Shown here one piece after another: positions 25,942-32,424 of a DNA stretch of 48,155 nucleotides (its first letter is position 1; every line of letters begins with the position of its first letter). The position numbers and the translations under genes were made by a program. This DNA is from Oscillospiraceae bacterium (lineage in GTDB: Bacteria > Bacillota > Clostridia > Oscillospirales > JAAYXM01), in the NCBI GenBank assembly GCA_017409405.1, contig JAFQSU010000071.1, positions 1-48,155 of the forward strand, in the 5' to 3' direction. The notes under the pieces are model-generated. The model was given only the letters and a program-made list of their open reading frames with translations. It had not been told where the DNA came from and searched no databases.

Positions 25942-26239
25942 ACACTTAATTTTGTATGTATTTTTCGGAATTACTATATAATAATTTAAGAGCAGAAGTT
26001 GCATTTTCAGAGTAGCAGCTTTGCATGGCGCTTCCTTTCATCAGTATAGTCGGGTATGCTGATCAGCGGCAGTTTCCGTGTAAAGTCTATACGCATTACA
26101 CATGAAAAGGCTTTGTTTTTGTGTGCATTTCTGTTCTTCACCGTAAAAACGCAGGCTTATTTCGCATGTGTTTTTACGGCAATACATAGTGTTTCGTTTT
26201 ATATTATCTATTATAAAAGACTGGAGAAGTGATAATTTA
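25942..26239 (+). promoter_or_regulatory. Long structured 5' leader of rnjA
   Basis: This gene-free stretch of about 300 bases contains two clear hairpins. One is at 26040-26063 (nine-base arms ATCAGTATA/TATGCTGAT, six-base loop). The other is at 26141-26179 (13-bp stem starting CCGTAAAAACGCA, 13-base loop), about 60 bases before the start codon. The second is not followed by a T run, so it is not a standard terminator. I do not recognise a riboswitch class. RNase J, or a protein sensing RNA decay, could use it for autoregulation. Confidence 0.45.
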
Positions 26240-27898
26240 ATGGCACAAAAATTAAAGGTATTTTCCCTCGGCGGACTGAACGAAATAGGTAAAAACATGT
26301 ATGTATACGAATACGCCGGAGAGATAATCATTGTTGACTGCGGCGTTGCCTTTCCCGATGACGATATGTTGGGCATCGACCTCGTCATTCCCGATATAAG
26401 CTATCTTAAAAAGCACAAAAACAGAATCCGCGCAATCCTCATCACCCACGGTCACGAGGACCACATAGGTGCTTTGCCGTATGTATTAAAAGAAATCAAC
26501 GCTCCTATTTATGCGACAAAGCTGACTGTCGGCGTTATCAAGAAGAAGCTTGAAGAACATAATCTTCTTTCAAAAACAAAAATTAAAATCGCATCCCCCG
26601 GTGACAGAATCAAAATCGGAAGCTTTGAAATTGAAATGATTCATGTCAACCATTCAATAGCCGATGCAGTTGCACTTGCGATAAAAACTCCGCTCGGCAC
26701 GGTTATCCATACCGGCGACTACAAGCTTGACCTGACTCCCATTCAGGGCGAAATGATGGACATCACAAGGCTCGGAGAGCTTGGCAAAAAAGGTGTCCTT
26801 GCCCTTCTCGGAGAGTCCACCAACATTGAACGTCCCGGATACACACTATCCGAATCAACAGTCGGCGATACCTTTGAATCACTGTTTAAAGACTGCAAAC
26901 AAAGGATTATCGTAACAACCTTTGCCTCTAACGTACACCGAGTACAGCAAATTATCCACACTGCCGCGAAATACGGCAGAAAGGTTGCTATAAGCGGCAG
27001 AAGTATGGAAAACATTATTGAGGTTGCAAAAAACCTCGGATACCTTGATATCCCGAACGATATACTTGTTGACCTTAACACGATTAACAGACATCCGAAA
27101 AACAAAACCTGCATAATCACAACCGGAAGTCAGGGAGAGGCTATGTCAGGTCTTTACCGAATTGCTTTCTCGGCGCACAAAAAGGTTGAAATCATGCCGA
27201 ATGACAGAGTTATAATTTCGGCAAGTCCCATTCCCGGCAACGAAAAAGCCATAAGCAACGTCATAAACGAGCTGTACCGTAAGGGCGCTGAGGTTATATA
27301 TGATAAATATGCCGAGGTTCACGTTTCGGGGCACGCCTGTCAGGAAGAAATCAAGCTTATGCTTGCACTCACAAAGCCGAAATATGTCATACCCATTCAC
27401 GGCGAGCACCGTCATCTCAAGGCGCACGAAGCTCTCGCAGTCAAAATGGGCGTTAACCCCAAAAACATATTTGTCTGTGACATCGGCCGTGTTGTTGAAT
27501 TTACGGAAAAGGGTGCAAAGCTTGGAGCTACGGTACCGAGCGGTAAGGTTCTCGTTGACGGCACGGGTGTCGGAGATGTCGGCTCGGTTGTTCTCCGCGA
27601 CAGAAAGCACCTTGCGGAAGACGGTATAATAACCGTTGTTGTAACACTCAGCAGCGAGACCGGCAAAATTTTAGCAGGACCCGATATCATAAGCCGAGGC
27701 TTTGTTTACGTTAAAGAAGCCGAAGATATGATGGACGACCTCAAGGCCTTTGCAACAGAAACTCTTCTCGCATGTATGAGAAGCAAGCACACCGACTGGG
27801 CATCCATAAAGAACAATCTTAAAAACAGAATGTCGGACTATCTCTATCAGAAAACCAAGCGCACACCGATGATTCTGCCGATAATTATGGAAGTATAA
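26240..27898 (+). CDS. rnjA: Ribonuclease J
   Basis: It is a 5'-3' exoribonuclease and endonuclease, central to mRNA decay and rRNA maturation in Firmicutes. The 552-residue protein is a metallo-beta-lactamase/beta-CASP enzyme. The zinc motif HGHEDH is at 70-75, HTGDYKLD near residue 160, and beta-CASP motifs lie around TFASNVHRVQQI and SGHACQEE; a C-terminal domain follows. ATG at 26240 (MAQKLKVFSLGGLNEIGKN) is the family start; the upstream in-frame start at 26168 is in the leader. A GGAG lies 13 bases upstream, so initiation may be modest or structure-dependent. It ends at a strong terminator. Confidence 0.95.
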   Translation: MAQKLKVFSLGGLNEIGKNMYVYEYAGEIIIVDCGVAFPDDDMLGIDLVIPDISYLKKHKNRIRAILITHGHEDHIGALPYVLKEINAPIYATKLTVGVIKKKLEEHNLLSKTKIKIASPGDRIKIGSFEIEMIHVNHSIADAVALAIKTPLGTVIHTGDYKLDLTPIQGEMMDITRLGELGKKGVLALLGESTNIERPGYTLSESTVGDTFESLFKDCKQRIIVTTFASNVHRVQQIIHTAAKYGRKVAISGRSMENIIEVAKNLGYLDIPNDILVDLNTINRHPKNKTCIITTGSQGEAMSGLYRIAFSAHKKVEIMPNDRVIISASPIPGNEKAISNVINELYRKGAEVIYDKYAEVHVSGHACQEEIKLMLALTKPKYVIPIHGEHRHLKAHEALAVKMGVNPKNIFVCDIGRVVEFTEKGAKLGATVPSGKVLVDGTGVGDVGSVVLRDRKHLAEDGIITVVVTLSSETGKILAGPDIISRGFVYVKEAEDMMDDLKAFATETLLACMRSKHTDWASIKNNLKNRMSDYLYQKTKRTPMILPIIMEV

Positions 27899-29811: not shown

Positions 29812-32424
29812 TCATTTTTCATTTCTCTTTTGCCACTCAAGAAGCTTTTCGGCAAAATCACCCGAGAAAACTTTACTGTCTGTTTTTAAATTATGCTCTT
29901 CCACTGTTTCTGCTACTGCTCGCTCTACCTTTTCAACCTCTTGCTCAAGCTGGCTTGCAGAGAGGCGGTATGCTCCGCTTCCGAAAATAATAATCTGCTC
30001 AAGACGGTCAGAGGTTGCAACCGTAACCTTATGGTGACCCGAAAGTGAGCGTACAGTTTTTTCAATATACGCGTCTGCTGTCTGCGCCTCCTTAGTGTAA
30101 ACAACAGTTATCCCTTTTTCGCTTTCGACCTCGCCACGGTTTCCCTTTACCTTATATGCATCAAAAACGAGTATAATCTCAGAATCGGTAAATACATTAT
30201 ATACAGAGAGCAAATCTATCAGCTTTACGCGCGCTTCCTCAAGGCTCTTTTCGGCTGTTTTTTTGAGCTCTTCCCATGCAAAAATAATGTTATATCCGTC
30301 AATCAGGAGATAGCTTTTCTCCTGTTTTTCGCCTGTTTTCAGCGTTTTTCGCTGTAAAGGCACTTCCCTTTTTACAGGTGCATCGTGTATCGGAAGCTTC
30401 CGCTTTATTTTTCCGTAGGTCATTTCGAAAATAGCTATAAGCTCATCCTCGGATGCGTGGAAATTTCGTGAGCGAGGCTTCTCATTTACATCTGCTTTCG
30501 GCTTCAGAACACTTTCAAGATGCATGTACTGCTCGACCTCATGCCACTTCACATTGAAGCCTGCGCCATGCGAACAGAAAACGGAGTCTGCGGTATTTTC
30601 CACATCCGCATCTGCATTATATCCGATTTTTTCTATGACCTCCGCAGCATTCTTGCACTTTCCATATCCATCAAACGAACAGTATACATGCCCCTCACCA
30701 CGGGTATAGGCAGTAATCTCCTGCTGATAGTTCCTTATTGCCGCCGCAGGTGCCCTGCCTTCTATCTTCGCCTGCTCTCCGCTATGGCGGTCTATCGAAA
30801 ACTCGGCTCCCAGAAGCTCAAGGTCTGTCATTGCTCGGCCGACATTCAGCGGTGGGAGCTCTATTGAAAAAGCATAATACGGCTCAAGCAGGACAGATTT
30901 CGCCCTCATAAGTCCGTTTCGAACTGCACGGTATGTCGCCTCGCGAAAATCTCCGCCTTCCGTATGCTTTAAATGTGCGGCTCCCGACTTAAGCGTTATT
31001 TTTATATCCGTTATAGGCGAACCCGTGAGCGTCCCCAAATGCTGTTTTTCCATAAGATGTGTAAGGATAAGGCGTTGCCAGTTTTTATCAAGAACGCTCT
31101 CAGGGCAGTCAATCTCAAACTGCATCCCTGCTCCCGACGGAAGAGGTGAAAGCAGAAGATGTACCTCGGCATAATGCCTGAGCGGCTCAAAATGTCCGAC
31201 ACCCTCGACTGTGTTTTCGATAGTCTCTTTATATACAATTCGTCCTTCCTCAAACTCAACCGGCATGCCAAAACGTTTTAAAACAAGTTGTTTTAAAACC
31301 TCAAGCTGAATTTCACCCATGAGGCGAAGCTGAATTTCCTTTAGGTGTTCGTTCCAGCTTACCTTCAGCTGAGTTTCCTCCTGCTCAAGCTCTTTGAATT
31401 TTTCAAGTGCGAAAGACGGCTCAGTTCCCTTCGGGAGAATTACACGATACGTAAATATCGGCTCCGCAGTGAGTGCGAGTGCTCTCTTTTCAAAGCCAAG
31501 CCCCTGTCCCGCAACCGTCCTTTTCGGTCCGGTCACAGCGCATACACACCCGGGGAAAGCCTCGTCCACCGTTTTGTATTTATCGCCGGAATAAATGCGG
31601 ATCTCGTTAATCTTCTCGACTATACCCTTTTCAGGCTCGATTGTACTTCTCACCTTAAGGCTTCCGCCCGTCACCTTCATGAATGTAAGGCGACTTCCCT
31701 TGTCATCATGACTTATCTTGAAAACCTTTGCCCCAAAGTCTTCCATCGCAACTATCGGGGTCGCAAAGGTATCAAACACTTTTAAAAAGCTCTCTACGCC
31801 CTCCATCTTGAGCGCAGACCCGGCAAAGCAAGGAAAAACAGCTCTCTTTTTTATTGTATCGGCTACGCTTTTCTCCGACAGAGAGCCTTCAAGAAACTCC
31901 TCCATAAGAGCTTCGTCGCATACGGCGAGATTTTCAGCAACTGTTTCACGGGCATCTGTAAAATCCACAAAGTTTCCGCCAAATTCAGTCTTTAAATTCT
32001 CAATAACCGCTTCTTTGTCACTCCCTGCAAGGTCCATCTTGTTTATAAAAACGAAAACAGGAGTTTTATGCCTTTCAAGCATTTCCCACAAGGTTTTGGT
32101 ATGGCTTTGTACTCCATCCGTCGCGCTTATAACAAGAATCGCACAGTCAAGCACAGAGAGCGTTCTCTCTGTCTCTGCCGCAAAATCTACATGCCCGGGC
32201 GTGTCAAGAAGAGTTACAACTGAGCTTTTCAAAGTCATAACTGCCTGTTTCGAGAAAATGGTGATACCTCTTTTTCTCTCTATTTCATTTGTATCAAGAA
32301 AGCTATCCCTCGCATCAACTCTGCCGAGCCGCCTTATCTCTCCCGCTGTATATAACAGACCTTCGGAGAGTGTAGTCTTTCCGGCATCAACATGAGCAAG
32401 GATACCTGCCGCAATTTGTTTCAT
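29812..32424 (-). CDS. TetM/EF-G-like translational GTPase fused to a Rae1/YacP NYN nuclease domain
   Basis: The protein has 870 residues. The N-terminal 640 are an EF-G-type factor: P-loop AHVDAGKTT (10-18), switch I RGIT (52-55), DTPGHVD (74-80), NKMD (128-131), then domains II-V. The domain IV tip at 481-492 reads GAAHLKHTEGGD and lacks the YSPVSTP loop by which TetM expels tetracycline. Residues 641-703 are a basic linker. Residues 704-845 match YacP/Rae1: LIDGYN, VFDAYKVKG, QTADAYIEK and ATSD keep every acidic site. Rae1 is a ribosome-associated A-site endoribonuclease in B. subtilis. A surveillance factor that enters the A site by GTP hydrolysis and cuts mRNA there is an inference. It follows parC by 25 bases. 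Confidence 0.88.
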   Translation of the reverse strand: MKQIAAGILAHVDAGKTTLSEGLLYTAGEIRRLGRVDARDSFLDTNEIERKRGITIFSKQAVMTLKSSVVTLLDTPGHVDFAAETERTLSVLDCAILVISATDGVQSHTKTLWEMLERHKTPVFVFINKMDLAGSDKEAVIENLKTEFGGNFVDFTDARETVAENLAVCDEALMEEFLEGSLSEKSVADTIKKRAVFPCFAGSALKMEGVESFLKVFDTFATPIVAMEDFGAKVFKISHDDKGSRLTFMKVTGGSLKVRSTIEPEKGIVEKINEIRIYSGDKYKTVDEAFPGCVCAVTGPKRTVAGQGLGFEKRALALTAEPIFTYRVILPKGTEPSFALEKFKELEQEETQLKVSWNEHLKEIQLRLMGEIQLEVLKQLVLKRFGMPVEFEEGRIVYKETIENTVEGVGHFEPLRHYAEVHLLLSPLPSGAGMQFEIDCPESVLDKNWQRLILTHLMEKQHLGTLTGSPITDIKITLKSGAAHLKHTEGGDFREATYRAVRNGLMRAKSVLLEPYYAFSIELPPLNVGRAMTDLELLGAEFSIDRHSGEQAKIEGRAPAAAIRNYQQEITAYTRGEGHVYCSFDGYGKCKNAAEVIEKIGYNADADVENTADSVFCSHGAGFNVKWHEVEQYMHLESVLKPKADVNEKPRSRNFHASEDELIAIFEMTYGKIKRKLPIHDAPVKREVPLQRKTLKTGEKQEKSYLLIDGYNIIFAWEELKKTAEKSLEEARVKLIDLLSVYNVFTDSEIILVFDAYKVKGNRGEVESEKGITVVYTKEAQTADAYIEKTVRSLSGHHKVTVATSDRLEQIIIFGSGAYRLSASQLEQEVEKVERAVAETVEEHNLKTDSKVFSGDFAEKLLEWQKRNEK

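Follow-up and report, generated by a model that had tools for sequence, protein, structure and literature searches.

The window analyzed here, i.e., the whole 48,155-nucleotide stretch of contig JAFQSU010000071.1 from an Oscillospiraceae bacterium, contained a gene encoding an EF-G-like translational GTPase and a YacP/Rae1-type NYN nuclease in a single chain (Table 1). The open reading frames of the window bore out the uninterrupted 870-codon frame given in a preliminary description, which had left the strand unstated: the frame was found on the minus strand and had no internal stop, and the plus strand of the same interval had numerous stops. The gene began 25 bp after parE-parC and had the same orientation (gene names from our reading of the sequences). 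A conserved operon was rejected, as the parE-parC-fusion order was absent at all other fusion loci examined, so that the neighborhood gives no functional clue. An RNase J-like gene was present approximately 2 kb from the fusion (window positions 26168–27898), a pairing absent in most relatives.

Table 1. Features of the fusion gene in the window, and yacP remnants in other genomes carrying the fusion.
Feature	Residues	Position	Strand	Basis
Whole fusion gene: EF-G/RPP-like translational GTPase + YacP/Rae1 NYN nuclease	870 aa	29812..32424	-	frame + Pfam
G domain (AHVDAGKT, DTPGH, NKMD)	5-221	31762..32412	-	Pfam GTP_EFTU, E 5.7e-50
Domain II	231-306	31507..31734	-	Pfam EF-G_D2
Domain III	340-392	31249..31407	-	Pfam EFG_III, weak match
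Domain IV	394-509	30898..31245	-	Pfam EFG_IV
Domain IV tip loop, GAAHLKHTEGGDFR, clade-specific; replaces TetM YSPVSTPADF	481-494	30943..30984	-	alignment
Domain V	511-593	30646..30894	-	Pfam EFG_C
Clade-specific C-terminal segment, lacking in TetM/TetO and EF-G	594-640	30505..30645	-	alignment
Linker, mostly predicted disordered	641-703	30316..30504	-	AlphaFold2 + family comparison
Linker motif E-L-x-x-I-F-E-R-T-Y-G (window ELIAIFEMTYG), predicted helix	661-671	30412..30444	-	conservation + model
YacP/Rae1-type NYN domain	706-856	29857..30309	-	Pfam NYN_YacP, E 1e-49
yacP pseudogene remnants (fusion-bearing genomes)		L196 ~2230-2800; L226, L228, L230, L231, rlmB-sigH interval

The GTPase half had the features of the EF-G/EF2 superfamily, namely the G motifs and domains II–V, and the Foldseek matches of its body were EF-G structures; the AlphaFold2 model of the fusion had a mean pLDDT of 81. 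That the EF-G-type G motifs are complete, as first described, was supported by the Pfam GTP_EFTU match and by conservation in 43 aligned fusions, among which D13, G15, K16, T17, DTPGH, and K129/D131 were invariant and the residues of AHVDAGKT, DTPGH, and NKMD invariant or nearly so. Domains II–V had been described as extending to about residue 640; the domains were indeed present, but domain V ended at about residue 593, and residues 594–640 constituted an additional segment unique to this clade. A Cys, a Cys, and a His at residues 590, 617, and 635, near and within this segment, were conserved and could form a metal site; unfused members of the GTPase group had a second Cys in addition to these.

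The best NCBIfam match of the GTPase was tet_protect, with 398.9 bits against a cut-off of 775 bits, while TIGR00484 (elongation factor G proper) scored 256 bits against a cut-off of 659.4. Identity to TetM was approximately 29%. In the alignment, the tip of domain IV (AHxKHTEGGDFR in the clade, HLKHTEGGDF in the window) occupied the place of TetM YYSPVSTPADF, in line with the earlier observation that the TetM domain IV loop is absent, and H484 aligned with the EF-G-type tip His, as had also been proposed. The window protein thus had no SPxSTPADF loop with the drug-site Pro; in TetM, Pro-509 in the domain IV loop makes contact with the drug-site nucleotide C1054 (PMC8161019). In the tree, EF-G, the Tet proteins (TetM, TetO, TetW, and OtrA), and the fusion-GTPase clade were separate, each with an SH-aLRT of 99. 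Membership in the Tet proteins was rejected based on the tet_protect score below the cut-off, the different tip, and the position outside the Tet clade; judged from its sequence, the fusion GTPase is a distinct clade, sister to the Tet ribosomal protection proteins and not of the TetM type. It shares with these proteins the EF-G-like domain order and a short first domain IV loop, and differs from them in its own tip, the extra segment 594–640, and the added nuclease. With elongation factor G it has in common domains I–V, the GTPase motifs, and the His at the tip position, whereas its first domain IV loop is shorter, its clade is separate, and a nuclease has been added.

Such proteins have previously been placed among the Tet proteins: ten Clostridiales were reported to have Tet proteins with a YacP-like NYN RNAse domain, and RNase-aided tetracycline resistance was proposed (Atkinson 2015; PMC4342817), with the GTPase freeing the drug and the NYN domain cutting RNA. 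The best NCBIfam match and the position of the clade as sister to the Tet ribosomal protection proteins are consistent with that proposal. However, the match remained under its cut-off, identity to TetM was low, a fixed and wholly different tip stood in place of the Pro-509 loop, and the fusion replaces a housekeeping nuclease (see below). Moreover, canonical Tet genes that grouped with tet(M), tet(O), and tet(W) were also present in two fusion-bearing genomes (G041 and G029), and this speaks against a resistance task for the fusion. Resistance is therefore considered an unlikely function. These genes are common in the gut, and their annotation as tetracycline resistance, which is probably mistaken, has consequences for resistome surveys.

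The nuclease half was a full-length NYN_YacP domain, scoring 169 bits against a Pfam cut-off of 24.6. The acidic residues, described earlier as all kept, were recovered both in the window protein, in which LIDGYN, VFDAYKVKG, QTAD, and ATSD were each found, and in its homologues: D709, G710, Y711, N712, D755, D784, E788, and T804-S805-D806 were invariant in the 43 aligned fusions, and the acidic positions likewise in 57 fusions checked first. The fused domain matched B. subtilis YacP lengthwise (PDB 5mq8/5mq9, E 5e-28); in 141 residues aligned with 5mq8, all catalytic residues were alike, and the C-terminal GxGAxRxSA motif was common to both. Rae1 of B. subtilis is an A-site endoribonuclease cutting mRNA (PMC6613710, PMC12320835). 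It is a stand-alone protein, whereas the NYN domain of the window is joined to a GTPase and is encoded elsewhere in the genome than the rlmB-sigH site.

A single scan of species genomes returned 180 relatives, the best 80 of which were spread over Clostridia with 45–74% identity and most of the query covered, and included isolates (Pygmaiobacter, Faecalibacterium, and Faecalicatena). The search for the combined EF-G/NYN_YacP architecture suggested at the outset yielded at least 75 full-length frames with this layout, the window included. Recurrence of the layout in so many full-length homologues, isolates among them, ruled out that the frame arose by chance or through misassembly. Frame breaks within or between the halves were observed in genomes G235 and G044 and at locus L019, representing either assembly errors or pseudogenes.

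The linker between the two halves was 56–120 residues long across the family. Its basic character, noted from the window alone, did not hold as a family trait, since net charge ranged from −6 to +10 over 78 fusions; an ELxxIFERTYG motif was conserved in it across fusions. Residues 643–658 and 668–701 had very low AlphaFold2 confidence and were read as disordered. A largely disordered linker of approximately 60 residues, as modeled, would provide enough reach for a tether. Because of this flexibility, the model gave no reliable position for the NYN domain.

The occurrence of fused and free Rae1 was close to mutually exclusive. NYN_YacP was detected in 99 of 146 clostridial genomes, fused in 55 (4 of these truncated where the contig ended or the frame broke), free in 44, and in both forms in none, while approximately 17 genomes with both would be expected under independence if kinship is ignored. 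Shared ancestry makes this exclusion look in part stronger than it is. In a wider sample, 250 of 393 genomes had NYN_YacP and only five had more than one match. Three of these (G120, G174, and G208) had a weak second match of approximately 21 bits in frames of 163–165 aa, which was also present in G051 and was dismissed as another NYN-like protein; G370 had the fusion and a broken yacP, and G284 had both forms intact. The expectation that genomes with the fusion lack a separate yacP was thus upheld, with G284 as the sole exception among the 393. In the genome of the window itself (88% complete), the only NYN_YacP was the fused one. The near-constant loss of stand-alone Rae1 in the presence of the fusion suggests that its job was taken over, and replacement of free Rae1 by the fusion in Clostridia is well supported by these genomic distributions.

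Traces of this replacement were found at the native site. Free yacP was located between rlmB and sigH in G051, G106, and G284, and no yacP was found beside rlmB in the genome of the window. G022, which carries the fusion and belongs to the genus of G051, had 71% nucleotide identity to G051 over 574 nt of the rlmB-sigH interval, a match that spans the intact yacP of G051 and its downstream flank; the G022 remnant had stops in all frames. G051 lacked a close relative of the fusion GTPase, its matches being at the level of EF-G only. Two yacP pieces were kept in G370, and fragments of 30–40 residues scoring 32–42 bits were detected in G097, G344, and G075 (the best of 1050 shuffled controls scored 26 bits). 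In ten other genomes with the fusion, the rlmB-sigH interval retained nothing convincing of yacP. Such a series, running from the intact gene through pseudogenes to deletion, would be expected if gain of the fusion had made yacP redundant, and decay in place ties the fusion to the role of Rae1 through independent genomic evidence. An early proposal of an NYN role in rRNA/tRNA maturation, as far as it is cited in PMC4342817, would instead fit a maturation or ribosome-quality factor whose GTPase carries the nuclease to rRNA rather than mRNA. Since the characterized YacP/Rae1 cuts A-site mRNA (PMC6613710) and the fused NYN replaces the yacP gene, this is regarded as very improbable.

All fused NYN domains formed one clade (SH-aLRT 100), and the fused members of the GTPase tree formed one group, in which only the L. 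salivarius protein was without NYN. In the sampled set, the fusion had a single origin. The L. salivarius GTPase (644 residues, megaplasmid locus L118:3530–5920) stops at the extra segment, and its lack of NYN would be explained most simply by later loss; it adjoins a divergent rpsN (S14) and a gene with a putative role in metal homeostasis. Other unfused relatives of 641–724 residues, several of them in Clostridia, had the same tip and also terminated at that segment. Within the fused-NYN clade there was one free protein, encoded in G209 (L203, minus strand, approximately 1435–2004 of the reverse complement) with no GTPase beside it. From its place in the tree, it is a fused-type NYN later released from the GTPase; a split gene with both halves retained was rejected, as the G209 GTPase groups with the unfused clade. 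G106 had two unfused GTPase paralogues (L159 and L161, 78% identical) in addition to its free yacP.

The existence of unfused GTPases and free NYN domains, the release in G209, and the long, mostly disordered linker would also be compatible with two independent jobs in one chain, i.e., an ordinary Rae1 and a translation GTPase with a separate role, for which the fusion mainly provides co-regulation. This is rather unlikely, though less so than a role in resistance, because the fusion has persisted in many families, reversals being few, and its linker contains a conserved motif, both of which suggest coupling of GTPase and nuclease.

Proteins of the TetM type bind to the A site, from which they dissociate upon GTP hydrolysis (PMC8161019). 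On balance, we favor the view that in the fusion the EF-G-like GTPase either brings a tethered Rae1 to the ribosomal A site or gates its action there; the preliminary description had inferred GTP-driven ribosome entry, remodeling, and mRNA cutting. Like EF-G and TetM, the GTPase body would bind to the factor site of a ribosome whose A site is empty, and domain IV with its fixed HxKHTEGGDF tip would probe the decoding center. GTP hydrolysis or domain movement would then allow the flexibly linked NYN domain to reach the A-site codon and to cut the mRNA there, before or after the exit of domain IV, so that the job of Rae1 would be done under factor control. The complete proposal, a GTP-gated A-site mRNA nuclease in which the GTPase cycle times the Rae1 cut and which has displaced free Rae1 across many Clostridia, is advanced tentatively, its chances being somewhat short of even. 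Simultaneous presence of domain IV and NYN in the A site is unlikely; as both are expected there, the action of one would have to follow that of the other, a point absent from the preliminary description, and their competition for one site may count against the mechanism. Furthermore, the GTPase occurs without NYN in L. salivarius and several Clostridia and may thus perform its own task without any cutting, and the freed NYN of G209 indicates that the tether is dispensable in that genome.

The architecture itself is already known, having been published in 2015 (PMC4342817), and the proteins described there apparently have the same architecture and belong to the same lineage. They were interpreted as having an acquired domain, with a suggestion of resistance, whereas it is new that the GTPase forms a separate clade with its own tip, that free Rae1 is almost completely excluded, and that yacP shows successive stages of decay at its native locus. 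A literature search, covering the Rae1 papers in part, returned no functional study of the fusion. The fusion is present in many gut Clostridia, and in it the selection of stalled ribosomes seems to be combined with a GTPase in a single chain. A Monoglobus protein with 53% identity (WP_320690501) was named 'translation factor GTPase family protein' at NCBI.
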